From Spirosoma pollinicola (GTDB taxonomy: Bacteria > Bacteroidota > Bacteroidia > Cytophagales > Spirosomataceae): 64,000 nt of DNA. The notes beneath the pieces are model-generated. The model made no database searches. It was not told the DNA's origin and saw only the letters and a list, made by a program, of their open reading frames with translations. Positions 1,432 to 23,513 of this stretch are shown piece by piece. Each line of letters opens with the position of its first letter. Position 1 is the stretch's first letter. The position numbers were made by a program, and so were the translations under genes. The stretch spans positions 1,612,001 through 1,676,000 of the forward strand of contig NZ_CP025096.1 in assembly GCF_002831565.1 (NCBI RefSeq), read 5' to 3'.

Positions 1432-1458
1432 TGAAATCTTTGTTAGAAATACATCAAT

Positions 1459-2475: not shown

Positions 2476-2481
2476 GTTGTT

Positions 2482-2541
2482 AGTGTATAAATAAAAAGGA
2501 TGGCCTGTTCTGGAACAGGCCATCCTTTTTATTTATACACT
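2482..2541. terminator. Bidirectional hairpin terminator between convergent genes
   Basis: Two perfectly complementary 29-base arms (2482-2510 and 2513-2541) with only two unpaired bases. The A/T-rich outer parts supply a U-run in either direction. It sits exactly between the convergent genes ending at 2475 and 2552, as expected for a shared terminator. Confidence 0.9.
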
Positions 2542-2551
2542 GATTATTTGT

Positions 2552-2971
2552 TTACATCAAATTCAGACTCATCATACCTGAAAAAAACTGTAGGCAACCA
2601 TCTTTAACGCGTGAAAAGTCATTCATTAATTTGGCAGCATGTCGTTCAATCGTTGCCGACAGTCCAAACCGGGTGCTGACACAAGCCATATTTTCTGACT
2701 GATGCAGGCACTCGTTGCCTTCGCAAATCATATCCCGGCGTAGTTGTTTGATATCAGATTGCAGGTGATTTAAGGCTCGATAGTAATCGACGGCATCGTA
2801 GCGCAGGCTGCGGCAATTATACTGCTCCATAACATCGTGTAACAAAGAACGGAGTTGAAGGATTTCTTCTTCCTGCCGACGGATTACCTGTTGCCAGTGC
2901 TGATGGTCGTGATGGCAGCTTTCTGTTGTTATGGGTGAAGTGGATAAATTTTTTGCGATTGCCTGATTCAT
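2552..2971 (-). CDS. Uncharacterised Cys/His-containing protein with coiled-coil segment
   Basis: 139 residues; not a family I recognise. The N-terminal part has a His-rich patch (SCHHDHQHW), followed by a heptad-like stretch (EEEILQLRSLLHDVMEQ) and a second helical stretch (LNHLQSDIKQLRRDM). Six cysteines are spread along the chain, including ICEGNECLHQ. No signal peptide, so it is probably cytoplasmic. Its start overlaps the stop of the upstream thioredoxin-like gene by four bases (ATGA), so the two are translationally coupled and may act together, for example in metal or thiol handling; that role is inference from composition and coupling only. Confidence 0.7.
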   Translation of the reverse strand: MNQAIAKNLSTSPITTESCHHDHQHWQQVIRRQEEEILQLRSLLHDVMEQYNCRSLRYDAVDYYRALNHLQSDIKQLRRDMICEGNECLHQSENMACVSTRFGLSATIERHAAKLMNDFSRVKDGCLQFFSGMMSLNLM

Positions 2972-3309
2972 AATGCTATGCTGTTAAGGTTTTTAAGAAG
3001 CGCTTCTTGTATCTGTTTATGTAAATGGCTGAATAAACCGGGCGTGTTGATCGGGCCGGTATGCTGCCATAATTCCTCTCCCTGCTGCAATAGGGCAAAA
3101 GCAGGTAAGGAGGTAAAGTTAAAACTACGAACCACTTCGGGATGAGTCGCTTCATTGACCTGCATGACTTGTAACGTCGAGTCCGAAACGGAGCGAATCA
3201 TTTCCAATAACTGATTCAACTCAGCCTCCAAATTCGAAACGACGGGTGCGCATACAAGCAGAATAGGTAAGGGTGAGGCCGCTGTTAGCGACGCCGAATG
3301 AGATGCCAT
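2968..3309 (-). CDS. Thioredoxin-fold protein lacking the CXXC active site
   Basis: 113 residues with a thioredoxin-like pattern: a first strand PILLVCAPVVSN, a middle EATHPEVVRSFNFTSLPAFALLQQGEELWQ segment, and a SLPAF stretch placed where thioredoxins have their cis-proline, followed by the two-strand turn. The position of the active-site WCGPC is CAPV, so a single Cys remains and dithiol redox chemistry is not expected. Such proteins often act as adaptors or chaperones, or use a lone Cys. ATG at 3309. It is the first gene of a two-gene unit with the Cys/His protein at 2552-2971, and is divergent from the histidine kinase starting at 3450. Confidence 0.65.
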   Translation of the reverse strand: MASHSASLTAASPLPILLVCAPVVSNLEAELNQLLEMIRSVSDSTLQVMQVNEATHPEVVRSFNFTSLPAFALLQQGEELWQHTGPINTPGLFSHLHKQIQEALLKNLNSIAL

Positions 3310-7997: not shown

Positions 7998-9776
7998 CTA
8001 CTTCTGCCGGGTTGCCCAGGCATCCATTTTGTGTTCCAGCACATCCAGGGGCATACAGCCATCTTTGAGAAACTCCTCGTGGAAAGCGGCCAGGCTAAAT
8101 TTGTCGCCGAGTTGCTTTTCATACTTACTGCGGAGTTCTCTGATTTTCAACGCCCCAATTTTATACGACAATGCCTGTCCTGGAATAGCCATATACCGCT
8201 CAATTTCGGCAGTAGCTCCCTGTTCCGAAATTGGCTCATTGGCCATCATATACTTGATCGCTTCTTCGCGGGTCATTTGTTTGGTATGCAAACCCACATC
8301 AACGACCAGCCGGATTGCCCGGTGTATCTCATCACCCAGCGCACCCATATACTGATAGGGATCGGTATACAACCCTAACTCTTTACCCAGCGATTCGCAA
8401 TACAACGCCCAGCCTTCTCCATAGGCACCGTACCAGGCAAATCGCCGAAATTTGGGCAAACTGGTGTTCTCCTGCTGCAACGATACCTGATAATGGTGAC
8501 CTGGAATGGCTTCGTGTAGAAACAACGATTCCATTCCCGACGTGATATTGAACTTGGTTGCATCGGGAATGGGAACGTAGAAAATGCCCGGCCGACTGCC
8601 ATCCGCTGAAGCTTGGTTGTACTCCGCACTGGCCGAGGCTTCGCGGAATTTCTCGGTTTGCCGAATCTCGAATTTTGATTTGGGTGTGCTAATGAAGTCT
8701 TTTTTCAGGTTCGGCTCGATCTTCGCTAAAATCGTCTGGAAGGCATCCAGCACGTCTTTTGGCTTTTTGTAGGGATAAAATTTCCTGTCCGTTTTTAGAT
8801 GGGTGAAAAACTGATCCAGACTGCCATTAAAGCCAACCTGCGTTTTTACTTTCTCCATTTCAGACCGAATTCGAGCTACTTCTGTTAACCCGATCTGATG
8901 GATCTGGTCTGGCGTATCATTTGTTGTAGTCCAGGTTCTGACCAGATACCGGTATAATTCCGGGCCTTGCGGTAATACGTTGATGCCGGATGTGGTACGG
9001 GCTTTAGGTAAATAGTCGTCTTTCAGAAAAGTACCAAGCTTTCGGTAGGTAGGGACAATTTGTTCGCTGATAGCTTTTTTGTAGGATGCCGTCAGGCGGT
9101 CTTTGTCGGCAGCACTAAACGTTTTGGGAAGTTTTTGGATGGGGCCGTAAAAAAGGCTTTTTGTGGGATCGCTAACCACCAGATCGGTCATTTGCGGAAT
9201 CATCTTCACAACCAGGCTTTTAGGCAACACCCGCCCGCTAACCATGCCTTTCCGAAAGGCTGCAATGGCGGTATCGCCCCAAACGGCAAAGGCAGAAGCG
9301 CGCTTTATCCAATCGTCATAATCTTTTACCGTTTTGAAGGGTTGTGCGCCTTCGCCACTGCCTAACTGACCGAAGGTAAGCGTTAGCCCCGTAAACTGGT
9401 TAAATGGAATTTCTTCCTGGTGGAATGCGTATTGCTCCAGTTGTAGCGCCAGTTCACGTTTTAGAATATCATAGGAAATCTTGTCTTCGTCTGATAGTTT
9501 CGCCCGGTCAAAGGTGTTGAGTTTTTCCTGCGTACCTGTGTAAAATGACTTTGTTTCGGTTATAAATGCCTGCGAGATGTCGTTGGGCAATTGGTCATTA
9601 TAGCGATTGTCTCCCTGTTGTGTGGCCTCAACGGGGAAAAGTTTTAATCGTTGCTCAAAATAATTGTCCAGTACAGTGGCGAACTCGGTGTTGGCCGCTG
9701 TTGTCTGTTCATTTTTGGGAGAGTTGCACCCGATCATTGTAGCCAGAAGTAGGGATAGTAGAAAGCGCTGTTTCAT
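7998..9776 (-). CDS. DUF885-family lipoprotein, putative zinc-dependent hydrolase
   Basis: 592 residues with a lipoprotein signal (LLSLLLATMIGC, lipid-anchored Cys17). The family signature HEAIPGHHYQ is at about residues 421-430; DUF885 proteins are mostly alpha-helical and this motif resembles the zinc site of M32/M2-like metallopeptidases, though activity of the family is poorly defined. Length fits the usual 550-600. Probably anchored in the envelope, facing the periplasm. It is transcribed alone: the downstream neighbour is convergent and the upstream FHA gene ends 52 bases before its start, so it could also be read from the long FHA/kinase cluster; no function in that cluster is implied. 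Confidence 0.85.
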   Translation of the reverse strand: MKQRFLLSLLLATMIGCNSPKNEQTTAANTEFATVLDNYFEQRLKLFPVEATQQGDNRYNDQLPNDISQAFITETKSFYTGTQEKLNTFDRAKLSDEDKISYDILKRELALQLEQYAFHQEEIPFNQFTGLTLTFGQLGSGEGAQPFKTVKDYDDWIKRASAFAVWGDTAIAAFRKGMVSGRVLPKSLVVKMIPQMTDLVVSDPTKSLFYGPIQKLPKTFSAADKDRLTASYKKAISEQIVPTYRKLGTFLKDDYLPKARTTSGINVLPQGPELYRYLVRTWTTTNDTPDQIHQIGLTEVARIRSEMEKVKTQVGFNGSLDQFFTHLKTDRKFYPYKKPKDVLDAFQTILAKIEPNLKKDFISTPKSKFEIRQTEKFREASASAEYNQASADGSRPGIFYVPIPDATKFNITSGMESLFLHEAIPGHHYQVSLQQENTSLPKFRRFAWYGAYGEGWALYCESLGKELGLYTDPYQYMGALGDEIHRAIRLVVDVGLHTKQMTREEAIKYMMANEPISEQGATAEIERYMAIPGQALSYKIGALKIRELRSKYEKQLGDKFSLAAFHEEFLKDGCMPLDVLEHKMDAWATRQK

Positions 9777-9828
9777 ATGTACTGGTTTATAAAAGGCTAA
9801 GGTAAGTACTTATAGAAAGGGAACCAGA

Positions 9829-10725
9829 CTAAACAAGCTCGAACAGAAGCGTAACTTCCCCACCCAATTCAATCTGGTCGCCGTGCTGAAGGGGGTAGCC
9901 CATGCCGGGAATATCGGCCCGCTCTATACGTTCATCGGGATGAAAGAGTTTTGTTTTGTTCCCGCTCGCCGGGAGGCCGCCCGGATCAACCTGGAGAGAG
10001 TATGTCCGACGGGCTGCATCGTATTGTATATGAGCGTGAGCACGGCTAACGGCACTATTGCCCGCCCCACGTTTTGCCTCATAAGCCGGATCATCTTCAT
10101 TAAGAATAACGATGTCGTTTGTCCGGATACGACCAGAAGCTGTTTGTGTCGAATGCCCACGGCCAATGCAAAAACTGGTTTTTTTTGCCGGATCAAGTAT
10201 ATAGTCAACCTGTTCTGTCTGGCCGGTCAACGCGACGATGCGAGCCAATAAAGGCGAGCTGTCTGGTTGGTTTTTATTCTGCACAATCATCCCCAGGTTA
10301 CCATTCTGGTAGGTGCAATCCGGCAGCTCGTCGGCATAAAACCCATAGTCGAATCGCCAGTCGTTGGGGAGCTTAACATAGTTATCGGCCAGTTGCCGAC
10401 TTAGTTCGCGTTGAAATTTACCGGGCTGACTCTCCCATAACGCCACCCGGTACACGGCCTCTTCTTCGGCATCTGTACAAAGAATGCACAGTTTTAAGCC
10501 GACAGGTGCCGTTTCGGGTTCATTTTGGTAGGGACGAAGCTTTTCTACTATAAACCGAAGCAGCCGGTCCCGTTGCTGTCCGGCAGGTGGTGGCCCTTGC
10601 GAAACAGGTTTGGGGATGTCGGTAATTGGCTCTTGAGGCCGATTTGAATTAACCGGTTCAACCGGTTGCCGGGCCTGAATGGGGGTGAACCCGAATAAGT
10701 TTTTAAGGCTATCTAAAAGGCTCAT
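9829..10725 (-). CDS. FHA-domain protein, last gene of the kinase/SEDS-PBP cluster
   Basis: 298 residues, no signal peptide. A short N-terminal amphipathic segment (MSLLDSLKNLFGF) leads to a Pro/Gln-rich linker (20-50), a central uncharacterised domain (about 52-165) and a C-terminal FHA domain with the canonical FCIGRG (187-190), VSRAHAHI (226-233), GNKT (255-258) and HGDQIELG residues. FHA domains bind phosphothreonine peptides, so this protein probably reads the phosphorylation made by the two kinases upstream. The last gene upstream, the SEDS-PBP fusion, ends 141 bases away on the same strand. Its placement corresponds to one of the two FHA proteins of the actinobacterial kinase operon; direct orthology is not claimed. 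Confidence 0.88.
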   Translation of the reverse strand: MSLLDSLKNLFGFTPIQARQPVEPVNSNRPQEPITDIPKPVSQGPPPAGQQRDRLLRFIVEKLRPYQNEPETAPVGLKLCILCTDAEEEAVYRVALWESQPGKFQRELSRQLADNYVKLPNDWRFDYGFYADELPDCTYQNGNLGMIVQNKNQPDSSPLLARIVALTGQTEQVDYILDPAKKTSFCIGRGHSTQTASGRIRTNDIVILNEDDPAYEAKRGAGNSAVSRAHAHIQYDAARRTYSLQVDPGGLPASGNKTKLFHPDERIERADIPGMGYPLQHGDQIELGGEVTLLFELV

Positions 10726-10732
10726 TACGTAA

Positions 10733-10775
10733 ATGGATAATTAATAATGTAAAATGAATGATGGATAGCGAGTGG
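10733..10775. repeat. Copy of the AATGGATAATG intergenic repeat family
   Basis: AT-rich sequence containing AATGGATAAT, TAATGTAAAATGAATGAT and GGATA, matching the units found at 14839-14972, 38266-38338 and 59927-59996. It lies in the gap between the FHA gene and the SEDS-PBP gene and here has no inverted partner, so it does not form a strong hairpin. Confidence 0.6.
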
Positions 10776-10866
10776 CAATTTGCTGATAGTCAGTATTTTG
10801 AAGTTTTACGTCGTCAATTTTATGTTATTCGTTTGCTGAATTAGGTGGCGAATTGAAAACGAACAA

Positions 10867-13800
10867 TTAAAAACTTCCTAAATAACTCCGCTGTTTTAAG
10901 ATCGGAGCGACAACGGTGTTTGCCAGTTGGACAGCCTCAGCCGACGATTCGCCCAATTCGATGCGTACGCTAACAACCGTATGGGACCGACCGTCGGGTG
11001 TGGGTGCGAAAAATACGAACCAGCCATCATTCTGCTGAACGCCCTGTACGATGCGTTCGGGCGTACCGGTTTTACCCGCTACCCGCGCTACACTGATCTT
11101 GCTTCGTCCTTCGGATGGGTTCGACTGGTTAATCATGAACGACTCCAATTGGTCGGCATAGTCGGCCTGACGCGCTATTTGCTTTCCGGAGGATATAGGC
11201 TGTGCCTGCCCCGCCCGACTCAAGACGTATCGTGACGGTTGCAACACGCCTTTATTAGCAATGGCACCCGCCATTCTGGCCAGGGCTACCGGTGTTGAGG
11301 TCAATTGCCCCTGCCCCCAGGCTAATCCCGAAAACTCACTTCTATACCGTTTTGGATACTGGTTGCTTTTATACAGATTCCGTCGGACAACAAACGACGA
11401 GTCGCGCCAATGCCGCCGAATCAGCGTACGTTCGGGATCGGTACGGGTATCCGAAAAAGAATAGCCTCCCACATAATCGACGTTCATGCCCGTGGCTAAA
11501 TACAGGTCGGCCAGTTCGTTATCCAGGTTGTTGTCGTTTGCCGTTCTAATAAAATAGACGTTACTGGAACGAACAATGGCCTTTCGCATATCGACCGATT
11601 CATTGCAGGGTTCCGACTCCCGCGTGCCGCGACGAATAATTTCTTCGCACGAAATCCGGTAACTGATATCCGAAGCCGATGAACCAAGTTTGTTGAACGC
11701 GGCCATTGCTGTCAGTATCTTGGCCGTTGAGCCGGGGGCGGTGGGATAGGTCATGCCCAGATCTCGTTCAGTGACCAGATACGGCAGTTTTTGCCGGTCG
11801 CGGTCGGCCAAAAGCATGGCGTCGGGCGTCTGTAAATTAGGTAGCGGGTGCATGGCTGAGGCCAGTATATCGCCCGAGCCAGCATCCAGTACCACGACCG
11901 AAACGCGCTTTGTTCGGTAGTCGGATGTAGCAAGGGCGTTCTGAATCGCCACTTGTAAATCGGCATTTACACTTAGATGCACATCCCGATTTTTTGCTTT
12001 TCGCTCGGCAACTTCGCGACTATCGATACCCGCCCGAAGTGCCGGAGCCAGTTCGCTGTAGTCATATACCGACAAGCTGCGTGTTTGCTGTACCGACGGA
12101 CTAAAACGGTCGGCGCGGTAGTCGGTAGTAACGAGGTCTGTTTTGCGTGGGCGACTGTTGAAGCCGCGCAACTCGCTCAGGTGCGTAGCTTCGGCATAAT
12201 AGCCGTTGCTTTGTCCCCAGAAAAGCTGCGTGTTCAAATCGCCCAGCCAAAAGAACAACTGATTGCCAAAGGGATAATACCGCTCCAGGCGTTTTTTTGT
12301 CAGCCGCTCGACTTCATCGGCTTTGAGGCCACTTTGCTGAAGCTTACGCAGTTGCTGCGAAACGAGCGTTGGCGAACTTGATGCCAGAATCAATCCGTTT
12401 CGGTCGTAGATCGTGCCAGCCGCCAGCGCTCGGGTGAGCCGATTGATACGCGGATTGTAGCTATATACAGGGTCGCCGTTGCGGGTGACCACGCGCGCTG
12501 GCCGAACGATGTAATTGTTGCCCTTCCAGCCCACAATGGGCAGTAGATGAGCAATCAGAACGCCAATGCCGACCAGAAAACCGGTGATCCCAGCCATCAG
12601 CACAAGGTCATAATGCGTGGCGAGGTATTCGCGTTGAGTCGTTTCTCCCGGTCGGTGGGCCACACTGAAAACGGCCCCCATAGCCATGAGGTTGATGATC
12701 AGCGATATTTTGCCGTAACTCAAAAAAGGAACGCTGATGCCCGTGAGCGGTAACAAACCAATCGAACCGCCGGCAATAATCAGAAACTGTATCCCGGTAG
12801 CAATGGCAATCCCGGCTATCAGGAAAAAACTAAACGGCTGCCCCGCCCGACGGGCATGTAAAAACAAACGGTGCAGCAGGATGCCAAACAGCAGGAACAC
12901 GCACACGACACCCAGACCACCCAGCTCTTCGCCCAGGCTCGGTAAAATCATATCGGTGTGAGCCGCTGGTATGGAATTGGCAAATCCCTTTCCCAGACCC
13001 TGCCCCGACCAGCCTCCCGACGCCAGTGCCCAATAGCCGTGCGCAAGATGATCGCCCCCATACACGTCGTTGTTCCAGGGGTTGAGCCACATAGCTTTGC
13101 GGTCGGCCAGCCGATCCCCCACAAACGGTAACATATCGCCAAACGCAAACATGGCCATTACCAGCAGAAGCAACACGGGTGCTTCGGCTAGTAAGGCCAT
13201 CCAGCCTGCACCAGTTTTCGAGCGAGCGTCCCCTTTCCAGTACATGTAGCCCGTAACGATAGCCAGACAAAGTGCCGTAGCTATCCAGCCCGGCAGAAGC
13301 CATAGCGCTAGGCCATAGCCAACGCCCGTTGCCAGCGTTAGCGGAAGATTGCCGCGCGCAATGCTGTAGAAAAGTAGAAATGTGAAGCATACCACCAGGG
13401 CAGGCCCCATGTCGCCGAGCAGCAGGTACAATAACATAAGTAGTCCGGCACCGGCCAGGGCACCGAAACTCACCGTAAAACGCCAGCGCAAATCGGGGAG
13501 TTGGCGGAGTTGCTGTTCGTTGGCCGCAAAGAAACCCGCGAAGAAAAGCAGCAGCAGGTATTTAGTGATTTCGCTCGGCTGAAACGTAAGGCCCAGAAAC
13601 GATAAATTCACGCGCACCCCACTGCCTTCAGGTCCGGAACCGACGAGCAGCGTCAAAGCCGCCAGTCCAGCCGCCAATAGTAGCCACGTCCAGCCCGATT
13701 GGCGCACCGCCGTACGTTTCTGAAACGAAAATAGCCAGTCATACTGCCAGTTAGCGTAAAATCGACCTATGTTTAGCTGCGATAAAATGGTCATGCCCAC

Positions 13801-14838
13801 CAACCCAATAGCAATACCCTGAACCGTTTGTCCGGCGAACAGTGTATCCTGCAAGGGGTCCTGAATAGCCAGCAGGATCAATACAGAAAAGCCGGTAAGC
13901 AGCATCAGAATGGGTAATAGCAACGGGTCGGGCTGAAAACGGCGAAGGGACCAAAATCCGTTTACGGCCCAGAAAGCGAGCAGGAATCCAAACACAATTC
14001 CCCAGAATTGCCAGAAAAAGGTGGCCGGTGTGCGAACGGTAAGGGCGTGATCTATTTTAAGCTGCCCATAAACCGTTGACCCGATCAGGCGCAGTTGGTG
14101 TGGCTGGGCGGAAAAGTCAAAACTCTGATCGTTTGTCAGGCGAGCCGTTCCGCGTCGGCTGCCAAACTCGAAGCCAGGTTTCAGGGGCACAACGCTATAG
14201 CCCGAGCCGGAGGTGAGGCCCCTGAACGCAAATCGGCCATCAGTATCCGTCCGGGCATAGACGAATCGGTCCTGCAAGGTGTCGGGTTGGGCGGTTGCCG
14301 GGTGGCGTTTTAACTGTACCAGCACGCCCGACATGGGTTGTTCCCCGCGCACGACGCGACCCGTTAACGAAACCGTTCCGCTTCCGGTATTGACGCTGGT
14401 TGGGTATGTTTTTGGACTGATCAATTCCCGGTTGTACAATACCGAGTCGAATCCCATTTGCTGGCGTGAAAATCGCAGTCGGCTTTGAAAATCTGCCCCG
14501 CCAATCCGACTACGCCAGCTTACCGGAGCCATAACCGAAAACTGTCGCTTATTTAACGCTCCCAGGTTATCCAGCGTCCCGTTTTGCCTGAATTTCGCGG
14601 ACAGTGAATCGGCTACTAAATTGATGTCATTTGAATCCGTGTAATAATTGCCGCTTGACAGTAGCCGTTGAATGGCTCCCGACTTAAGCCCTTTATCCAG
14701 ATTAAGAGCCTGTCCGGTAGAATACGCTTGTTTCGCCTGATCGAGCGACGGTAACAGGTTGCCATAGAGCCGGACGAACAGCACTAAGAGCATGACCGAT
14801 GCCGCAGGTAAATACAATCGTTCAAGAGGGGATTTCAT
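10867..14838 (-). CDS. SEDS glycosyltransferase (RodA/FtsW type) fused to class B penicillin-binding transpeptidase
   Basis: 1323 residues in one open frame. An N-terminal membrane helix (10-30) is followed by a 230-residue periplasmic region with a beta-sandwich like carboxypeptidase regulatory domains (about 153-245: GTVSLTGRVVRG, TDTDGRFAFRGL). Then come about a dozen membrane helices (270-730) with SEDS motifs: PSEITKY (421-427), GDMGPALV (475-482), and HTDMILPSLGEELG (627-640), whose Asp629 sits where SEDS enzymes have their catalytic Asp. A further helix (744-766) leads into the PBP: GTIYDRNG, SxxK (Ser1037-Lys1040), SSN (1091-1093) and KTG (1256-1258). Thus both glycan polymerisation and cross-linking residues are present. 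RodA and PBP2 normally are two proteins that form one complex. Neighbours are kinases, a phosphatase and FHA proteins. Confidence 0.95.
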   Translation of the reverse strand: MKSPLERLYLPAASVMLLVLFVRLYGNLLPSLDQAKQAYSTGQALNLDKGLKSGAIQRLLSSGNYYTDSNDINLVADSLSAKFRQNGTLDNLGALNKRQFSVMAPVSWRSRIGGADFQSRLRFSRQQMGFDSVLYNRELISPKTYPTSVNTGSGTVSLTGRVVRGEQPMSGVLVQLKRHPATAQPDTLQDRFVYARTDTDGRFAFRGLTSGSGYSVVPLKPGFEFGSRRGTARLTNDQSFDFSAQPHQLRLIGSTVYGQLKIDHALTVRTPATFFWQFWGIVFGFLLAFWAVNGFWSLRRFQPDPLLLPILMLLTGFSVLILLAIQDPLQDTLFAGQTVQGIAIGLVGMTILSQLNIGRFYANWQYDWLFSFQKRTAVRQSGWTWLLLAAGLAALTLLVGSGPEGSGVRVNLSFLGLTFQPSEITKYLLLLFFAGFFAANEQQLRQLPDLRWRFTVSFGALAGAGLLMLLYLLLGDMGPALVVCFTFLLFYSIARGNLPLTLATGVGYGLALWLLPGWIATALCLAIVTGYMYWKGDARSKTGAGWMALLAEAPVLLLLVMAMFAFGDMLPFVGDRLADRKAMWLNPWNNDVYGGDHLAHGYWALASGGWSGQGLGKGFANSIPAAHTDMILPSLGEELGGLGVVCVFLLFGILLHRLFLHARRAGQPFSFFLIAGIAIATGIQFLIIAGGSIGLLPLTGISVPFLSYGKISLIINLMAMGAVFSVAHRPGETTQREYLATHYDLVLMAGITGFLVGIGVLIAHLLPIVGWKGNNYIVRPARVVTRNGDPVYSYNPRINRLTRALAAGTIYDRNGLILASSSPTLVSQQLRKLQQSGLKADEVERLTKKRLERYYPFGNQLFFWLGDLNTQLFWGQSNGYYAEATHLSELRGFNSRPRKTDLVTTDYRADRFSPSVQQTRSLSVYDYSELAPALRAGIDSREVAERKAKNRDVHLSVNADLQVAIQNALATSDYRTKRVSVVVLDAGSGDILASAMHPLPNLQTPDAMLLADRDRQKLPYLVTERDLGMTYPTAPGSTAKILTAMAAFNKLGSSASDISYRISCEEIIRRGTRESEPCNESVDMRKAIVRSSNVYFIRTANDNNLDNELADLYLATGMNVDYVGGYSFSDTRTDPERTLIRRHWRDSSFVVRRNLYKSNQYPKRYRSEFSGLAWGQGQLTSTPVALARMAGAIANKGVLQPSRYVLSRAGQAQPISSGKQIARQADYADQLESFMINQSNPSEGRSKISVARVAGKTGTPERIVQGVQQNDGWFVFFAPTPDGRSHTVVSVRIELGESSAEAVQLANTVVAPILKQRSYLGSF

Positions 14839-14972
14839 TTGTAAATGAAGTGATGGATAAGAGGGAATGGATAATGTGAAATGTACAATGGGTAATCAGA
14901 ATAAACTGTAAATCAGAGATTTGTCATTATTTTGTGTGCGTGGCCCTATATTATTCATTCTACATTCTTCAT
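14839..14972. repeat. Intergenic repeat pair of the AATGGATAATG family
   Basis: The gap between kinase and SEDS-PBP genes has GATGGATAAG and AATGGATAATG units followed by GTGAAATGTACAATGGG (about 14852-14893), and, near 14948-14976, the same family in inverse orientation (ATTATTCATTCTACATTC). The two halves can fold back on each other around a 50-base spacer. It may reduce read-through between the kinases and the large synthase gene; that is inference. Confidence 0.55.
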
Positions 14973-16271
14973 TTAATTAGGGTTTCCTGTCGAATCGGGG
15001 GTGGCTGTTGAATCGGATGGTGTTGTTGGTGTCGCAGTTGTTGTATTGGCCGGAGGTATGGGGGCAGGGCTTGTCGCGACAGAATCGGTAGTGGTTTCTT
15101 CGTCAGATTCGGGGAACGTAACCGTTGCTGAGTCGGCGTTTGGCACCAGTTCATCTGAGGCCAGTGAATCAGTGTCGGTAACCGTCGAGTCGGGCAAAAA
15201 GCTGGCTGGCTTGTCTTTATGACGGATAGAGTACATAATCGCCAGACCGATCAGCAACGTAATGACAAATGCCGATAAGGCTATTTTCCAGCTACCCGAA
15301 CTGCCGGATGGCTCGTCGTCATGAAGTGGTTCATACGCATCAACCGATTGAGGCACTGCTGGTGCCGCCATCGTTTGAGCGCGTGGCAAGCTGGGTGCCT
15401 GACGATTCCCGGAGCGGTTGGCCTGCAACAGCTCCACGTTGGCCTGTCCGAGTAATAAAGCCAGTTCTGTTACATCGCTAAGGCGGTCGGCAGGGTTCTT
15501 TACCAACGTCCAGTTCAATAATACGTTGAGGCTTGGGGGCAGAAACTGACCCGAAGGCAGCGATAGCGCGGGCGGGGGCGTACGCAGAACATGACCCATA
15601 AAAGTGGCCATGCCTGCCGTATCGGCCATAGCAAACGGTACTTTTCCGGCAAGGCACTCGTAGAATACAACGCCCAGCGAGTAATAATCGGTGGCCAGAT
15701 CCACACCCTTAGGATTGTCGAATTGCTCGGGCGAGGCATATTCATAGGTCATCAAGGATTGCCCAGTCATCGTCTGCGATTGTTCGCGCAGGCGGGCCAC
15801 GCCAAAGTCGGTTAGTAGAAAATGCAGTTCGCCACTTGGTAGAAATCGATAGAGGATGTTTTCCGGTTTAATATCGCGGTGGATAATTCCCTGCGGATGA
15901 ATGGCGTGGAATGCCTCCGACATTTGCAGGCCCAGCCGGATGGTTGCTGCCACGCTCAACTGCCCCTGTTCGTCGATCAGTGAGCGTAGATTACCACCTT
16001 CCACCCATTCCATCACGATGAAGGGCATGGGCATATCCAATTGAACTTCCCGCACCCGCACCACATTAGGATGCCGGATGCTGGTCATGATTTCTGATTC
16101 GATCCGAAATCGCCGTAGTGTATCAGCATCGGTGTTCAGCGTAAAGTGCTTGATGGCCACCAGATTGCCCGATGCCAGATGGCGGGCTTTCAGCACACGG
16201 GCGTTGGAGCGACCTAGTTCGCCTATAATTTCATAACCCGGAAAGTGGGTATTGACGCTTACGGTTGGCAT
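14973..16271 (-). CDS. Transmembrane Ser/Thr protein kinase (kinase 1 of tandem pair)
   Basis: 432 residues. Kinase domain 10-275: ATP lysine in VAIK (Lys41), alpha-C Glu in the IESE stretch, HRDIKPEN (131-138), DFG (155-157), SPEQF and a conserved late Arg. The glycine-rich loop is unusual: ELGRSNARV keeps only the first glycine. A linker leads to one membrane helix (about 329-349), then a low-complexity tail rich in Thr, Ser, Pro and Asp that would lie in the periplasm; there are no PASTA repeats. It is paralogous to the kinase upstream, aligned without gaps over the first 220 residues, so arose by tandem duplication. The upstream kinase stop is 6 bases from its start. Probable targets are the FHA proteins and the SEDS-PBP partner system. 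Confidence 0.93.
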   Translation of the reverse strand: MPTVSVNTHFPGYEIIGELGRSNARVLKARHLASGNLVAIKHFTLNTDADTLRRFRIESEIMTSIRHPNVVRVREVQLDMPMPFIVMEWVEGGNLRSLIDEQGQLSVAATIRLGLQMSEAFHAIHPQGIIHRDIKPENILYRFLPSGELHFLLTDFGVARLREQSQTMTGQSLMTYEYASPEQFDNPKGVDLATDYYSLGVVFYECLAGKVPFAMADTAGMATFMGHVLRTPPPALSLPSGQFLPPSLNVLLNWTLVKNPADRLSDVTELALLLGQANVELLQANRSGNRQAPSLPRAQTMAAPAVPQSVDAYEPLHDDEPSGSSGSWKIALSAFVITLLIGLAIMYSIRHKDKPASFLPDSTVTDTDSLASDELVPNADSATVTFPESDEETTTDSVATSPAPIPPANTTTATPTTPSDSTATPDSTGNPN

Positions 16272-16277
16272 CGGTCC

Positions 16278-17828
16278 TTAGTTTAAGGGCTCTGTTGATG
16301 ACGTGAGTGAGTCGGCAGGTTGGGGAATATCCAGCGACTCGTAGCTTATAATTTTACAGGTGACCCGGGTTCCCCGATCGCTATCGGGAGCTGATTTTAT
16401 GGGCGATGAGTTTGGCTCTATGTTGTTAAAAAAGACTTTCTCCGTTTTATAAAGACCGCCCCCATCTTTGTAATAGTTCACCTGAACCACCACGTAGGTA
16501 AACGATAAACGAGTAGGATTATTCAATTGAAGCTGTAAATGCTTGATGCCCCCAAATAGGCCAACTTTAAAATTTGTCGCTTTTACCTTAACGCTTTTTA
16601 CCGCCATCAACGCTTCTTGTCGAAGTCGCTCCAGCCGTTTGATTTCGGCCAGTTGTTGAATCCGGGCTGCTTCGGTGTCAGGCGGAGTGGCGGCTCTTAC
16701 CGAATCGCTGATGGTTGATGGATTGGTAGAAGTTGGCTTACTGATTTGCCCAGACTTATCCCTGACGGTTATGTAATAAACACCGGCGAGAATGAGTATG
16801 ACAAAGGCGCCCAAAGCAACCATTTTTCCAGCACTATTGCTTTTTGGTGGCTTGGTCTCCCGGTTTGGCAGAACAGGCGCTGCTTGCACGGTCGTTAACG
16901 GCCTGGCGTTAGTTGTTACTCTCTGTTCCGGGACGACAGTAGGCAAAGTTTTTGGTTCAGAACGAGTTACTCTGCTGGCCTGCAAATAGTCGAGTTCGGT
17001 TTGTTTGAGTAGCCAGGTCAACTCATCGGGGTCATTCAGTCGGTCGCCCGGTTTCTTTTTCAACAAACTGTCGAGCAGCGTAGTAAAGGGGCCTAGTGAC
17101 TGCCCGCTGGCCGAGATAGTTAGTGGGGGCGGGGTATCGGCGAGTACCTTATTCATAAAGGTAACGATGCCTGAATGGTCGCCCATAGCAAAGGGCACTT
17201 TGCCAGTCAAACATTCGTACAACACCACACCTAATGAATAATAATCGGTGGCTGTACCTACCCCTTTTGGGTCGTTAAACTGCTCGGGCGAGGCATATTC
17301 GTAGGTCATTAACGATTGTCCGGTCATGGTATTCGACTGGTCGTGCAGTCGAGCTACCCCGAAATCGGTCAACAGAAAATGCAGTTCACCACTCGGCAGG
17401 GGGCGGTACAGAATGTTATCGGGCTTAATATCGCGGTGGATAATTCCCTGTGAATGAATCGCCTTGAAGGCACTTGCCATTTGCAGACCTAACCGAATGG
17501 TAGTCGGCACATCCAGATGGCCATTCGCTTTAAGAAGGTCACACACACTGCCGCCTTCGATCAACTCCATAACAATATAGGGCAATTCGGCCTCCAGCTG
17601 CACCTCGCGAATTTTAACGATATTGGGGTGGGCGATGCTGGTCATTATGGCCGATTCCCGCTGAAACCGCCGAAGGGTCTCTGCATCGGTATTGAGCGCA
17701 AAGTGTTTAATAGCAACAAGGTCGCCCGTGTCCAGATGGCGTGCTTTGAGAATACGGGCATTACTACGGCCCAACTCACTCAGTATTTCGTATCCGGGAA
17801 ACTGGGTGTTAAATCGAACGGTAGCCAT
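16278..17828 (-). CDS. Transmembrane Ser/Thr protein kinase with FxLYD-like ectodomain (kinase 2)
   Basis: 516 residues from the ATG at 17828, which overlaps the PP2C stop as TAATG; a longer frame to 17897 exists but would run inside the phosphatase gene. Kinase residues: Lys41 in VAIK, HRDIKPDN (131-138), DFG (155-157), SPEQF. The same degenerate glycine loop ELGRSNARI as kinase 1. A membrane helix at about 336-354 is followed by a short coiled coil (about 385-412, AEIKRLERLRQEAL) and a beta-rich domain (about 412-500; LQLNNPTRLSFTYVVVQVNY, GLYKTEKVFFNNIEPNS) that resembles FxLYD domains, facing the periplasm. This is a plausible sensor in place of PASTA. Translational coupling with the phosphatase suggests balanced production of the two opposing enzymes. 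Confidence 0.93.
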   Translation of the reverse strand: MATVRFNTQFPGYEILSELGRSNARILKARHLDTGDLVAIKHFALNTDAETLRRFQRESAIMTSIAHPNIVKIREVQLEAELPYIVMELIEGGSVCDLLKANGHLDVPTTIRLGLQMASAFKAIHSQGIIHRDIKPDNILYRPLPSGELHFLLTDFGVARLHDQSNTMTGQSLMTYEYASPEQFNDPKGVGTATDYYSLGVVLYECLTGKVPFAMGDHSGIVTFMNKVLADTPPPLTISASGQSLGPFTTLLDSLLKKKPGDRLNDPDELTWLLKQTELDYLQASRVTRSEPKTLPTVVPEQRVTTNARPLTTVQAAPVLPNRETKPPKSNSAGKMVALGAFVILILAGVYYITVRDKSGQISKPTSTNPSTISDSVRAATPPDTEAARIQQLAEIKRLERLRQEALMAVKSVKVKATNFKVGLFGGIKHLQLQLNNPTRLSFTYVVVQVNYYKDGGGLYKTEKVFFNNIEPNSSPIKSAPDSDRGTRVTCKIISYESLDIPQPADSLTSSTEPLN

Positions 17829-19285
17829 TAGGGGTGGATCGGTTTGGTCGGAACAGATTGTTTCTGTACAGCAATAGAAATAATAGTATTGAGGCACGTA
17901 TCCTGCCGGATTGCGGCCCGAACCGGTAGGTCTACACGCTTGAAATATACTTTATTTAAGACTAGCCGGGCTTCACCCGTTGTTTCGATACCGGTTTTAA
18001 ATCCGCTGATGATCAGATTGTTCAACTGAATTGTGCCCCTACGCTCAACGCGCATCGCGAGCATTGAATTGGCCGAATCGCGTGGAGCGATAACGGTTAA
18101 CTGATTCCGGCCTATAATGGCCAGTAAGGAATCGGTCAGGGATACCGGCTTATCAATTCTCAACGTATCATCGGTCAACACAAGTTGATGATCGGCGCTT
18201 CGATGAGCGGTTTGCAGAAGCGAGTCCAGTCGCAGGGAAGGCACAGGCAGGGCGGCAACTGTGTCGGGCAGAGAATGTGCCACATTCAGGCTGTCAACAA
18301 TCGACGCAGTCGTTGCCGATGGCCAGGATTGATACCACACAATACCCGCAATACCGCAAATGGCGACAAGGCCCATTAATACCCATCTGCCTGTTGAGGA
18401 ACGTTTGACCGGCTCCGGCTTAATTGGTTGCTCTACAGCGGGTACCAATGGGGCGACGGGAACAACCGGCGGTTTTCTCGACCGGGCCGATTTCGGATTT
18501 GGCAAGTTTACGGGCGCTGCTGGTTCGCTGGTTCGGACATCATTTCGGGCCAGAACAACCGTAATGTTATCGTTGCCTCCCTGATGATTGGCTACCCTGA
18601 CCAATTCGGAAAGTTGCTTGTCGAGGGAAATCGGTCGGTTCAAAACAGCTTTTATCTGGGCCTGGGTTATCATATCGGTCAGGCCATCGCTGCATAACAG
18701 CAGTTGATCGCCGGGTTGAAAATCCGTTTCGCCGGAATCCAGAAAATTTGGATCATCCACACGATGGGGGCTTGAGCCAACATCGCGCAGAATTTCGTTT
18801 CGGCGGGGGTGCGCCATTGCTTCGGCTTCGGTCAATTCATTGGCATCTTCCCGAACGCCTACCAGCGAATGATCCTGGGTCAACTTCGTGAGTTCGCCCT
18901 GTCGATAGCGGTACAGGCGCGTATCGCCTACATGAACAAAGTATAATTTGCTGGTGCTGACATCGGCCAGAGCGGCTGTCAGTACACAGCACATCTGGCC
19001 CAGCCGAAGGTCCTGCTCGCGTTGCTCATTGATCTGGTTATTGGCAAATACGACGGATTCGCGCAACATCGAAAGCGGGTCGCCGTTGGGCGTTGCCATG
19101 TAGCGTTCAATAGACTCTTTTGCAATTGCAGCAGCCCGGTCACCACCCGCATAACCGCCTACGCCATCAATGACCGTTAATAAGGCGCTCGACTCCGACC
19201 AGAGCGGAGTACAGATAAACGTGTCCTGATTATCTTTCCGACGCTGGCCAACATCGGTCAACCCGGCGATAAGTAATTCATTCAT
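17828..19285 (-). CDS. PP2C-type Ser/Thr phosphatase with membrane anchor and ectodomain
   Basis: 485 residues. Catalytic PP2C domain 1-248 with RKDNQD (16-21), VIDGVGGY (Asp40, Gly41), FVHVGDTRLY (117-125), LLLCSDGLTD (196-204) and GGNDNITVV (237-244); these hold the metal-binding aspartates. A Pro-rich linker leads to one membrane helix (301-320) and a 165-residue periplasmic part whose second half (RGTIQLNNLIISGFKTGIET and what follows) reads like short beta-helix rungs. It should remove phosphates from Ser/Thr kinase targets, comparable to PstP in actinobacteria, which also has a membrane helix. Start and stop touch neighbours: the stop overlaps the kinase ATG. The ectodomain function is unknown. 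Confidence 0.93.
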   Translation of the reverse strand: MNELLIAGLTDVGQRRKDNQDTFICTPLWSESSALLTVIDGVGGYAGGDRAAAIAKESIERYMATPNGDPLSMLRESVVFANNQINEQREQDLRLGQMCCVLTAALADVSTSKLYFVHVGDTRLYRYRQGELTKLTQDHSLVGVREDANELTEAEAMAHPRRNEILRDVGSSPHRVDDPNFLDSGETDFQPGDQLLLCSDGLTDMITQAQIKAVLNRPISLDKQLSELVRVANHQGGNDNITVVLARNDVRTSEPAAPVNLPNPKSARSRKPPVVPVAPLVPAVEQPIKPEPVKRSSTGRWVLMGLVAICGIAGIVWYQSWPSATTASIVDSLNVAHSLPDTVAALPVPSLRLDSLLQTAHRSADHQLVLTDDTLRIDKPVSLTDSLLAIIGRNQLTVIAPRDSANSMLAMRVERRGTIQLNNLIISGFKTGIETTGEARLVLNKVYFKRVDLPVRAAIRQDTCLNTIISIAVQKQSVPTKPIHP

Positions 19286-19348
19286 TCGAAACAGGAAAAG
19301 TGGATACGATCTGATTAAACAACTCGTCTGAAACCCGTTGGTTTGACC

Positions 19349-19432
19349 TTATCGGGGTAAGTTCTGAAAATGCCTGACCACCAGAAAAAGGACAAACAAG
19401 AAGAGAAGCAGCACAAGCAAAAAGTCGATCAT
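19349..19432 (-). CDS. Possible 27-residue single-pass membrane peptide
   Basis: ATG at 19432, TAA at 19349-19351. The peptide starts MIDFLLVLLLFLFVLF and ends VVRHFQNLPR: one continuous membrane helix with a basic end. Its ATG comes only four bases after the stop of the upstream FHA gene, a spacing typical of coupled genes, and the gap between FHA and PP2C has no other use. Such peptides often regulate membrane enzymes. The frame is short enough that chance cannot be excluded. Confidence 0.4.
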   Translation of the reverse strand: MIDFLLVLLLFLFVLFLVVRHFQNLPR

Positions 19433-19436
19433 TGGG

Positions 19437-20447
19437 TTAAGCGTTGCGTTGGAAGTGAAGCGTAACCATACTATTGAGCAGGATTTGTGCTTTATCGGAC
19501 AGGTCAAACCATTGAGGGCTAGCCGGTTCGCTACGCGGAATCAGTTGCTCATTCACACGCGTTTCGTTGCGGCTAAAGGAGGCTATCTGGAACGAGTGCG
19601 TCGAATCGTTGTAACGAATTCGGGCGTGTGGATTCGATACATAGGCCGATTCGAGAAGTAAATAATTTGGAAAATGCTGGTTGTCGCTTTCTTTCCGGGC
19701 AATGATAATTTCCCGATCACGCATCAGATAGGTGTCCTCTTTATTCAGTTCGGCAATGTAATAGCTAACGTGCGCCAGGCCAGCGTCGAGGCTGCGCGGC
19801 AGGGCAGCTGGCGCAATTTTAGTTGCTCCCGGTGCTGCGGACGTTTGCCCATTTGACGGGGCGGCTGCATTGAAATTGAATTTTACGACAAAGGCACCCG
19901 GCTCGCGAAAGTCGATATGCTGGAACGTGCTCAGGTCGACATCTACCTTTTCATAGCGGTTCGTTTGCTTAACCCGCCGGGTTACGTTTACTCGCTCGGG
20001 GGCGGAATTAGCCTGCACATTCCCCGGCAAAATACCTGTTAACGCACCAATTACTTTCACGTCGGTCGGGCTCACCGTTTCTCCGCCAAACTCGCGACCG
20101 GCACCAAATTTAAAAAACCAGCTTGATGCCACTGGCGACACCCGCCCGTATTCACTTTTATGCATGTCAATCACCGCATTGAACGCCTGAACGGCTTCGT
20201 TCACCACGACAGGAAATGCATTTTGGCGATTTTCGTAGGTGTCGGGATGCAGAACAATCAGAAAGTGCGCGTTGAATAGCATACTCGACCCAACAGACTC
20301 GCGCTGGATAGAATCGTCGAAACTGGCTACCAGTTCGTCCAGTATACGTTTGTTTGTGACGGTAGTAGCCGGGCTGGTATCCGTTTGGCTGGATGGAATA
20401 ATCAGGTTACTCAATTTTCCGAGCCAACCACCGGGTTGATTTGCCAT
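19437..20447 (-). CDS. FHA-like protein, first gene of the kinase/SEDS-PBP cluster
   Basis: 336 residues without signal peptide. The start is a Trp/Leu amphipathic segment (GGWLGKLSNLIIPSS) comparable with the first residues of the other FHA protein at the end of the cluster. A central alpha/beta domain of unknown family (about 35-200; FNAHFLIVLHPDTYENRQ) is followed by an Ala/Pro-rich linker and a C-terminal FHA fold (about 240-333) with REIIIARKE in place of the IGR strand, SNPHARIRY (271-279) in place of SRxHA, NETRVNE and the closing LHF strand. The FHA pocket is divergent, the Gly of GR being Ala, so phosphothreonine binding needs testing. It opens the operon; 200 bases upstream are non-coding and must hold its promoter, which I cannot define. 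Confidence 0.8.
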   Translation of the reverse strand: MANQPGGWLGKLSNLIIPSSQTDTSPATTVTNKRILDELVASFDDSIQRESVGSSMLFNAHFLIVLHPDTYENRQNAFPVVVNEAVQAFNAVIDMHKSEYGRVSPVASSWFFKFGAGREFGGETVSPTDVKVIGALTGILPGNVQANSAPERVNVTRRVKQTNRYEKVDVDLSTFQHIDFREPGAFVVKFNFNAAAPSNGQTSAAPGATKIAPAALPRSLDAGLAHVSYYIAELNKEDTYLMRDREIIIARKESDNQHFPNYLLLESAYVSNPHARIRYNDSTHSFQIASFSRNETRVNEQLIPRSEPASPQWFDLSDKAQILLNSMVTLHFQRNA

Positions 20448-20972: not shown

Positions 20973-23513
20973 TCAGTACTTGCCTATTACCACGGTTTGG
21001 CCATACCGACCGTTGGCATTGAATGCTTTAAATTTAATTGTGCCGGTGCTGGAAACGGGTTCCTTGTAGACTGGGCTGGTTTGGGTAGGCTCTGTACCGT
21101 CTGTTGTGTAGCGTATCGTTAAACCCGGGAATTGCACATTGGCAGCCACTTTTCCGTTAATGACCTTTGCGCCAACGGCAGGAATACGATACTGGTAACC
21201 GCCAGCATACGAATCTAGGCGGGGAAGCTCCCGTTTACCTACCGTATTGATAAACGCAGACCAGGCCTGGTTGTATAACGGTTCACTTTTTGCCTCGTCT
21301 TTCTCCAGTGCCCAGGTGGGGTCTTTAGCCCAGGCTCGCTCGGCCACGGCCAACAACTTTGGAAATAGTTTGTACTCAAATTGCTGGGGTGACCTGTTTG
21401 TCTCCGACCAAAGAGGGGCTTCTATACCAACAATGTTCGCCTTGCCTTTTTCTGTCAACGCTTCCCGGCTTTTGATCATGGAGGAGCTGATTCGATTACC
21501 GGTATTATCGTCTTTCAGGTTTCTGAGGTAGTCGTATGGAATAAAGTAAAAAGGCTTGTCGATGTCTACGTAGCCGCCCCAATATTGGCCTGGCTCTTCG
21601 GATGATTGGTTGTAGGCGAGGTCTAGATACAAGTGCGTGACAGGTGTTAAAATCACTTTGTAACCAGCATTGGCCATTCGGTAGGCAAGGTCTTCTGCCC
21701 CTGAGCCGGGACTATTTTTCCAGACATTCACCCGAAAATTCTGAGAGACAAATGTTGGGTTTGGCACCCAGATCGACCGACCATTTTGCTTCACTTTTTT
21801 AAGACCAATTTCCTCCCAGCCAGAGAGAAACAAGCCACGGGTTTTGAGGAGTTGATTTACTTTACCGAAGTAATAATACCACAGGTCGTCGGCGTCTTTA
21901 ACAGATGGGTTTTTGGCAATCAGTTGTTGTACCGAGGGTGATTTTTCCCAAACGCCCCCCGGCACCTCATCACCCCCAAAATGAATCGTTTGTAAAGGGG
22001 CACCCGCTTCTTTATACATAGCCCGTAAATCATCGACAACCCGTTCCAGAAAGGCATAGGTCGACGGCAGCGATACGTCGATTACATTGTCGTTCCAACC
22101 CTGCACTGACCGATAGACCGATTTGTCGTTCAGGTCGTGAAGAAGGTAGCGTTCGGCTTCAGTTTTATTACCCGCTTTCATAAACCGCTCGTAGCGGGCA
22201 TCCATTGCTTTTATGGCGGCCCGGGCGTGTCCCGGCGATTCAATCTCCGGAATTACGACAATGTGTCGGTCGTGGGCGTATTTCAGGATGTCTACGAAAT
22301 CGGCTTTGCTGAAGAAGCCCGTACCCGCTGTATTCGCTGAGCTGGGGCCGGAACCATAAGATGGAATAAGCTTCTTGTTCGGATCTGTTGTATGGGCCCG
22401 TACAGCACCAACCGATGTTAATTCGGGCAGAGACGGCATCTCAATCCGCCAGCCTTCATCTTCGCTAAAGTGAAAATGGAATGTATTCAGCTTGTATAAA
22501 GCCATGGCGTCCAGCACTTTGATCACTTCTGATTTTGGCTGGAAGTTCCGGGCCATATCCATCATCAGGGCCCGATACGCAAAACGGGGAGCGTCGTTTA
22601 CCATCATTCCCGGCAGGCTAATTGAACTTGCCTTACCCGCAAAAGCAGACGCTGGGAGTAACGATTGCAGGGACTGAATGCCGTAGAAGATACCTGCGCC
22701 GGTAGATGCCGATATAACGATTCCCGATGCGCTCACCTGTAGCTCATACCCCTCAGCAGCAAGCGACGCTTTTTTTCGGAGAGCAATGGTTTTGCCCGTA
22801 GCCTGCGCCTGAATAGCGGGCTTTTTTCCTAACGCTGTTTTCAGGCTGTTGGCCAGAAAGTCAGCTTCGTTACTAAACGCCTTATCAGTCACAATAACCA
22901 CCTGATTATCCAGCGCAAACGGGGCTCCTTTTTCAGCGTAGAAAACGGGCGTCGGAAATACTCTGGGAAGCTTATCGTCGGAGATTGCCTTTATTTTTTC
23001 GTTTTGGTCGAAGATTTTTTCGGCCAGCGCACGGTCAGATTTCTCATAGATCGTGCCTGACTTTATGGCTACGTCAACAGGGTAAGCCTGTTCCGGGTTT
23101 TTGTCCAACACCAAATAAAAACCAACTGGAAAATCGGTTTTGTTACGAATTTTTCCGGCCAGAACCTCTATCGTTGTCGATTGGCCGGGAGCCAGTTTTG
23201 AGAATTTTGGTCCCGGACTTATATAATGTAAATCGCCATTAAAGAGCTTTACCTGAGCTTTGGATGCATCGAAACTGCTGGGGTTGCCACCGTTGAAAAA
23301 CAGTTTCCAGCCACTGGCGGGCAGGTCTTCATTGCCAGTGTTTGTAAGTGTTAAAACCGAGTGAGAACGACCCTTGTTCTGGTAGTTGTTATCGACCAGT
23401 TCCAGCGAGATGGTCAGTGGTTTGGATGGACCTTCCGAAACTGTGGCAGGTAATGGATAGCTGATGAAAAATGACAGGCAAAAAAGGATTAACCCCAGGG
23501 TGTACGTTCTCAT
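20973..23513 (-). CDS. Beta-N-acetylhexosaminidase, GH20, secreted
   Basis: 846 residues with an N-terminal signal peptide (TLGLILFCLSFFISYPLPA). An N-terminal carbohydrate-binding CHB_HEX-like domain (about 30-170), a GH20b alpha/beta domain (about 185-305) and the catalytic barrel (about 308-730) with the paired catalytic acids Asp515-Glu516 in HFGGDEVPGG. The C-terminus has a chitobiase-type Ig-like domain (VNGKVAANVQFPGLTIRYTTDGTEPTQ). It releases terminal GlcNAc/GalNAc from chitin oligomers or glycoproteins in the periplasm or outside. Stands alone: no SusC/D pair or transporter adjacent. A 12-base inverted repeat with a 36-base spacer is placed 40 bases upstream of its start. Confidence 0.93.
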   Translation of the reverse strand: MRTYTLGLILFCLSFFISYPLPATVSEGPSKPLTISLELVDNNYQNKGRSHSVLTLTNTGNEDLPASGWKLFFNGGNPSSFDASKAQVKLFNGDLHYISPGPKFSKLAPGQSTTIEVLAGKIRNKTDFPVGFYLVLDKNPEQAYPVDVAIKSGTIYEKSDRALAEKIFDQNEKIKAISDDKLPRVFPTPVFYAEKGAPFALDNQVVIVTDKAFSNEADFLANSLKTALGKKPAIQAQATGKTIALRKKASLAAEGYELQVSASGIVISASTGAGIFYGIQSLQSLLPASAFAGKASSISLPGMMVNDAPRFAYRALMMDMARNFQPKSEVIKVLDAMALYKLNTFHFHFSEDEGWRIEMPSLPELTSVGAVRAHTTDPNKKLIPSYGSGPSSANTAGTGFFSKADFVDILKYAHDRHIVVIPEIESPGHARAAIKAMDARYERFMKAGNKTEAERYLLHDLNDKSVYRSVQGWNDNVIDVSLPSTYAFLERVVDDLRAMYKEAGAPLQTIHFGGDEVPGGVWEKSPSVQQLIAKNPSVKDADDLWYYYFGKVNQLLKTRGLFLSGWEEIGLKKVKQNGRSIWVPNPTFVSQNFRVNVWKNSPGSGAEDLAYRMANAGYKVILTPVTHLYLDLAYNQSSEEPGQYWGGYVDIDKPFYFIPYDYLRNLKDDNTGNRISSSMIKSREALTEKGKANIVGIEAPLWSETNRSPQQFEYKLFPKLLAVAERAWAKDPTWALEKDEAKSEPLYNQAWSAFINTVGKRELPRLDSYAGGYQYRIPAVGAKVINGKVAANVQFPGLTIRYTTDGTEPTQTSPVYKEPVSSTGTIKFKAFNANGRYGQTVVIGKY

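Follow-up and report, generated by a model that had tools for sequence, protein, structure and literature searches.

The stretch of DNA considered here, 64,000 nucleotides of Spirosoma pollinicola (contig NZ_CP025096.1, positions 1,612,001 to 1,676,000 of the forward strand; the window below), carries on its minus strand, at 9829-20447, six genes for two FHA proteins, a PP2C phosphatase, two Ser/Thr kinases and a single polypeptide that joins a SEDS protein to a class B penicillin-binding protein (PBP). These positions are exactly those that an earlier note gave for six same-strand genes, and its domain assignments are confirmed by Pfam and the open reading frame (ORF) list. FHA1 (19437..20447) is a protein of 336 residues without a transmembrane (TM) segment, having its own N-terminal region and a C-terminal FHA domain. 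The PP2C (17828..19285, 485 residues) has an N-terminal catalytic part, presumably cytosolic, one TM segment at about residues 298-320 in a hydropathy scan and an extracytoplasmic tail. Kinase A (16278..17828) is counted from a likely ATG start at 17828, the listed ORF beginning at a GTG at 17897, and kinase B occupies 14973..16271; according to Pfam and hydropathy the former has a TM segment and then a tail of ~160 residues, and the latter a TM segment at about 325-350 and a tail of ~80 residues rich in Thr, Ser and Pro. The SEDS·PBP fusion (10867..14838, 1323 residues) is followed by FHA2 (9829..10725), 298 residues with an N-terminal domain, a C-terminal FHA domain and no TM segment. None of the six proteins reaches the cut-off of an NCBIfam model; the fusion scores best with FtsW (158 bits), RodA and PBP2/MrdA, the kinases with PknB and the PP2C with Stp1 (192 bits, under its cut-off of 230).

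Both enzymes of the fusion retain their catalytic residues. The SEDS part (12655..13926, about residues 305-728) matches PF01098 at 146.7 bits against a Pfam cut-off of 26.4, and the HTD motif holding its conserved Asp is kept in all 18 aligned fusions. The PBP transpeptidase domain (10897..11901, residues 980-1314) has STAK, SSN and KTG, and in the same alignment SxxK and SxN are present in 18/18 and KTG in 17/18, with KSG in the remaining one. The PBP dimerisation domain PF03717 was not found in the fusion by Pfam. By hydropathy a first TM segment is succeeded by ~240 residues lacking one and then by the SEDS segments; between the first and second TM segments is a CarboxypepD_reg-like stretch (14152..14370, residues 157-229) whose match, 23.1 bits, is under the Pfam cut-off of 32.3. 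A natural SEDS-PBP fusion is mentioned in PMC10449877 with a citation of the Rhodococcus RHA1 genome paper; it is a precedent for one frame encoding both enzymes, the likeness being one of description.

The fusion does not stand in for the ordinary wall enzymes. The 8.79-Mb S. pollinicola genome has two further SEDS genes, one of them adjoining the PBP2 gene as a pbp2-rodA pair. Its FtsI has a PASTA domain, and the gene is followed by one for a Mur ligase and then by one with a MraY-type Pfam domain. A check for separate rodA, ftsW and pbp2 genes, proposed in the earlier note, thus finds all three and ftsI besides, and with ftsW, ftsI and the adjacent pbp2-rodA kept separately the fusion is a third SEDS/class B PBP pair. 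RodA-PBP2 and FtsW-FtsI belong to the same enzyme families as the fusion, but they are separate proteins, PBP2 and FtsI both carry PF03717, and they fall into different clades.

On the control side, both window kinases carry, in their translations, the Lys, HRD and DFG motifs. As the earlier note had said, the kinases lack PASTA repeats: Pfam detects none in either, and none is listed for eight kinases of relatives (for one of these among the best 25 of 63 families). Three Pkinase genes were found in the genome, two of them in the operon; the third belongs to another PP2C and kinase pair, at genome positions 6098021-6100445. In FHA2 the columns of the phosphothreonine site (Arg, Ser-Arg-x-His, Asn-Lys) are invariant in 15/15 near relatives, the window protein having IGR, SRAH and NK in its FHA domain.

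The set is not confined to one strain. Full-length fusions occur in 15 of 291 genomes of the order (S. pollinicola included), the carriers belonging to three genera of the family; within the family a profile search gives 37 of 150 genomes, in 7 of 36 genera (one carrier, G724, being cut by a contig end), and a phylum census 15 of 395, in 8 of 170 genera, with five carriers in other classes. Two candidates per genome were scored for the order and phylum counts and four for the family count, so that absences are not proof. A scan of named genomes yielded at least 24 loci, at least 23 of them with the fusion, the genera among the matches listed being Spirosoma, Larkinella, Fibrella, Niastella, Segetibacter, Ferruginibacter, Mucilaginibacter (12 matches) and, by record name, Flavobacterium sp. 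SUN052. This last record (L055, from an 8.1-Mb genome) may be misnamed; its fusion is 64% identical to that of the window. The complete six-gene set is also present on a 136.7-kb plasmid of Spirosoma oryzicola (L074, NZ_CP089545.1), where the genes are named only generically. Two genomes, G773 and G781, each have two divergent fusion copies, and in G781 a second FHA1 and PP2C are within ~6 kb of the second copy.

Gene order is retained to a corresponding extent. Among 14 fetched relatives 13 keep FHA1-PP2C-kinase(s)-SEDS·PBP-FHA2, an adjacent FHA1 being missing in one and two having a single kinase. (In one locus, L043, ~3.5 kb of other ORFs, at 9002-12470, separate kinase B from the fusion.) Apart from the window, 44 distinct loci were compared (47 were fetched, of which 3 proved to be copies). 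In 43 of them FHA2 is on the fusion's strand and downstream of it, the exception, L070, ending with its contig; the distance reaches 7.5 kb in L055. The PP2C is upstream of the fusion, or in frame with it, in 38 of the 44. An FHA1-PP2C-SEDS·PBP-FHA2 core is common to Spirosoma, Niastella, Segetibacter and Mucilaginibacter, and it is the kinases that shift place: the Spirosoma family and Niastella have them between PP2C and SEDS·PBP, Segetibacter has them after FHA2 (FHA1-PP2C-SEDS·PBP-FHA2-STK-STK-STK, where STK is a Ser/Thr kinase), and they precede FHA1 in 12/12 Mucilaginibacter loci, 7 of which have them after FHA2 as well. In the far classes the FHA1 profile match is weak. The earlier note had allowed that the order might prove to be widely annotated in the phylum; it is indeed common to many genomes, but the sole annotated record seen names the genes generically, and no paper describing this Bacteroidota operon was found in the open-access literature. 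Its other reservation, that this might be an ordinary rodA/pbp2 locus with kinases added in this strain alone, is contradicted by the presence of the set in several families and classes.

Control genes and synthase are inherited together. In the 150 family genomes fusion and FHA1 co-occur in 37, FHA1 is alone in 1 (an assembly in 350 contigs), the fusion is alone in none and neither is found in 112 (Fisher p 2e-34, uncorrected for kinship); FHA1 was likewise not found in the two fusion-less Spirosoma genomes of the order scan. Retention extends to split operons: in G679 and G680 an FHA1-PP2C-kinase(s) block is tens of kb away, apparently on the fusion's own contig, with its parts still kept, and in G227 FHA1 persists on a different contig from the fusion. 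In one genome, G471, a single frame of 1384 residues contains PP2C (residues 11-251), SEDS (460-835) and PBP (1044-1374), and in L138 an operon kinase itself carries an FHA domain. (In L137 a kinase fused to WD40 repeats, at 604-3117, is upstream of a PP2C·SEDS·PBP operon.) The phosphatase in frame with SEDS·PBP and the joint retention of FHA1 are arguments for control and synthase being parts of one system, and a phosphorylation-gated accessory peptidoglycan synthase is the best explanation of the set, one that we hold to be fairly probable. These same two observations count against a different account, in which an accessory synthase serves a special state (stress, resting cells or antibiotic exposure) or makes a non-ordinary polymer while the kinases act mainly elsewhere. 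Patchy presence, the plasmid copy, the double copies in G773 and G781, the keeping of the canonical pairs and the fusion's own N-terminal region all suit such a synthase, and it is a possibility to be taken seriously, if on the doubtful side.

As to ancestry, the SEDS part is related to the SEDS proteins of actinobacterial operons and not to Bacteroidota RodA or FtsW. In a 36-row SEDS tree the fusions group with the operon RodA of two actinobacteria and an FHA-linked SEDS of Clostridia (support 100/97), and in a second SEDS-only set with the operon RodA of Actinomyces oris, Nonomuraea and Tsukamurella and the SEDS of Monoglobus (100/98); adding far-class fusions lowers the fusion stem from 2.11 to 0.99. 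A tree of concatenated SEDS and PBP sequences sets the fusions and FHA-linked pairs apart from Rod and Fts pairs (99/96). Approximately unbiased (AU) tests on the first SEDS set reject the fusion with Bacteroidota RodA (p 0.024), with Bacteroidota FtsW (p 0.024) and with all elongation-type RodA (p 0.004); a clade of fusion and actinobacterial RodA that leaves out Monoglobus did not appear in the tree and was not rejected either (p 0.108). On the concatenated set the fusion with Bacteroidota Rod pairs (p 1.7e-7), with all Rod pairs (0.014) and with Fts pairs (0.026) is rejected. An ordinary Bacteroidota rodA/pbp2 locus is dismissed on the first of these values and because the genome's own pbp2-rodA pair is elsewhere. 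By profile score the nearest solved SEDS structures are FtsW (111 bits) and then RodA (68), a ranking that differs from the tree's preference and so marks the SEDS part as highly divergent.

Sampling bears on how these trees are to be read. They include few actinobacterial rows (three in the second SEDS set and the concatenated one) and no Chloroflexota operon. The first SEDS tree has all but one (L028) of the 15 Bacteroidota SEDS loci L021-L035 and a long branch, the RodA of Tistrella; the first PBP tree has 14 of the 18 loci L096-L113 (L100, L111, L112 and L113 left out); and the concatenated tree has 7 of one batch of 11 fusions (L038, L046, L069 and L072 left out) and 5 of a second batch of 9 fusion loci (L135, L139, L140 and L141 left out). 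The RodA of Arthrobacter, split in two frames, was excluded and the Embleya ORFs were likewise unused.

The whole set could descend from one ancestral FHA-PP2C-SEDS-PBP-kinase operon, reached by very old transfer or deeper inheritance, with the kinase wiring and the fusion alone being new. The SEDS and concatenated groupings, the rejection of Rod and Fts placements and the same FHA-PP2C-SEDS-PBP backbone in both phyla speak for this, and it comes close to an even chance. Against it, fusion with all FtsW is not rejected in the first SEDS set (p 0.123), some p values are modest given several tests, five rows of the concatenated set have an odd letter make-up and the actinobacterial rows are few. 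PBP-only trees leave the fusion PBP on its own branch and not with PbpA, the relation of operon PP2C to PstP has support of just 72/61, and FhaA_N is absent by sequence. Assembly may alternatively have been in part independent, an FHA-linked SEDS lineage being joined within Bacteroidota to a PP2C, kinase and PBP of other origin. The PP2C and PBP trees do not settle kinship, the kinases vary in number and place, and neither PASTA nor FhaA_N was found, all of which would suit it. Yet the 12 operon PP2Cs, drawn from all classes sampled, make up a single clade (100/99) that excludes the set's other Bacteroidota PP2Cs, and actinobacteria have the FHA-PP2C-SEDS-PBP order as well; this alternative falls somewhat short of even. 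Of the two origins offered in the earlier note, independent assembly is disfavoured by the trees for SEDS and is left for PBP, PP2C, kinases and FHA proteins; as for transfer, a recent one with an actinobacterial donor is unlikely, since several families and classes carry the fusion with the same backbone.

The actinobacterial fhaA-fhaB-pstP-rodA-pbpA-pknA-pknB operon is the obvious comparison. According to PMC6554272, the pstP locus is linked to wall synthesis, the products of fhaA and fhaB are phosphothreonine readers, and PknA and PknB are described as essential; phosphorylation of PbpA by PknB is reported in PMC3989709. In both systems two FHA genes, a PP2C, a SEDS, a class B PBP and kinases are together, and the FHA-PP2C-SEDS-PBP order and related SEDS proteins are shared. 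The match in content that the earlier note had seen is borne out by the loci of Actinomyces oris (L076: FhaA(DUF3662)-FHA-PP2C-RodA-PBP-kinase-PASTA kinase) and Tsukamurella (L116, whose PP2C is missing from the gene table and was found as an ORF). Its claim that the order repeats the actinobacterial one fails: here it is FHA-PP2C-kinase-kinase-SEDS·PBP-FHA, with a fused SEDS and PBP, kinases that precede or surround the synthase and one FHA gene after it, and none of 13 order patterns in Bacteroidota loci, other than or equal to this one, is the actinobacterial order, that of Segetibacter coming closest. Differences extend to kinases without PASTA where checked, to a PBP not placed with PbpA and to the lack of a detected FhaA_N. 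PF12401 has no match in the S. pollinicola genome at E 10 or less and none among 18 FHA1 proteins. For the FHA1 N-domain, homology to FhaA_N was rejected after hhalign against four actinobacterial FhaA proteins gave a collinear but insignificant result (probability 1.8%, E 0.027), and for that of FHA2 the comparison was weaker still (probability 1.0%). The FHA1 N-domain is poorly predicted, at a mean pLDDT (predicted local distance difference test) of 52.8, and the FHA1 profile has no significant match to solved structures; an FHA2 fold search has no FhaA_N entries among the matches listed, nearly all of which span residues 157-298 and not the N-domain (47-155). With so weak a profile comparison, a far relationship of the N-domains to FhaA_N is still conceivable. 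Because order, PASTA and FhaA_N all fail, the set is not filed as a member of the actinobacterial operon. The most fitting name for it is a Bacteroidota variant of FHA/PP2C/kinase-linked SEDS-PBP systems; the best reading of its sequences is as a divergent relative of that operon, probably old in the phylum and once found on a plasmid. The earlier interpretation is thus supported in part: by the gene content, the PASTA-less kinases, the separate canonical genes and the SEDS kinship, but not by the order or by the occurrence of the set beyond this strain.

Two other systems merit comparison. In Monoglobus pectinilyticus (Clostridia, L091) an FHA gene is directly before a SEDS-PBP pair of related SEDS lineage; unlike in the fusion operon, SEDS and PBP are separate there and no PP2C or kinase is annotated alongside. 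Clusters for type VI secretion also contain kinase and FHA proteins, and a Rhodovulum phosphatase beside tssM and tagF (L162) has PP2C in common with the present set, but the operon PP2Cs form a separate clade. No type VI secretion genes are among the operon neighbours read, no search aimed at them having been made.

By analogy with the actinobacterial locus linking PstP, PknA/B and FHA proteins to wall synthesis, the phosphorylation-gated synthase might work as follows. The SEDS part of the fusion would polymerise lipid II and the class B PBP part cross-link the strand, as a wall machine apart from the cell's own RodA-PBP2 and FtsW-FtsI. The membrane kinases could sense envelope state through their non-PASTA extracytoplasmic tails and phosphorylate threonines on themselves or on partners, the membrane PP2C would strip these marks, and FHA2 (with FHA1 in the Spirosoma family) would recognise phosphothreonine and either recruit the synthase or gate it. 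What the sequences show is the gene set, the fusion, its retained catalytic residues, the co-inheritance, the SEDS ancestry and the separate canonical pairs; enzyme activity, signal, phospho-targets and direction of control are what we infer. Several observations weigh against this scheme. The glycine loop of the kinases is reduced, with the first Gly alone retained, and the cytoplasmic loop of the fusion preceding the PBP TM helix has no conserved Thr and so offers no obvious phospho-target. FHA1 is a weak FHA protein: the Pfam model matches 8 of 18, in the Spirosoma family 14/14 retain the Arg, Ser and His columns while Asn varies, and the Segetibacter and Mucilaginibacter rows inspected (9 of 18 rows in all) are without the usual site. 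Three loci (L133, L135 and L136) have no PP2C or kinase near the fusion, as far as the locus itself goes, and the triple PP2C·SEDS·PBP frame is from one genome, with an internal start possible. The unrejected FtsW placement, the isolated PBP branch and the weak PP2C-PstP link belong on the same side of the balance.

A broader proposal, and a decidedly tentative one, is that an ancient phospho-controlled SEDS-PBP module crosses phyla, its FHA-PP2C-SEDS-PBP backbone having already been at work in the forebears of both the actinobacterial and the Bacteroidota operons, and was rewired in Bacteroidota as a Gram-negative third machine, with phosphorylation state gating one polymerising and cross-linking polypeptide. 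The hard-wiring would then consist of the SEDS-PBP fusion, to which in one lineage the phosphatase was joined too. Most work on phospho-control of peptidoglycan synthesis has been done in actinobacteria, whose SEDS and PBP are two proteins. If the synthase works as proposed, Gram-positive bacteria are not alone in controlling SEDS-PBP pairs in this way, and the PP2C·SEDS·PBP frame offers a phosphatase already joined to a wall synthase. With the synthase a single polypeptide and the ordinary pairs kept, the module may be removable without cell death, making its control directly testable.

Of the surroundings there is less to say. Promoter and terminator scans of the operon gave scores near chance level. 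The next gene upstream of the operon, both in the window (20973-23513) and in two close relatives, is that of a GH20 hexosaminidase; a different GH20 is upstream of it in three Mucilaginibacter loci (L064, L066 and L067), for which chance and a wall-related link are both possible. The flanks are mostly variable, with the window's GH20 neighbour recurring in 2 of 14 relatives and its DUF885 neighbour in 1 of 14.

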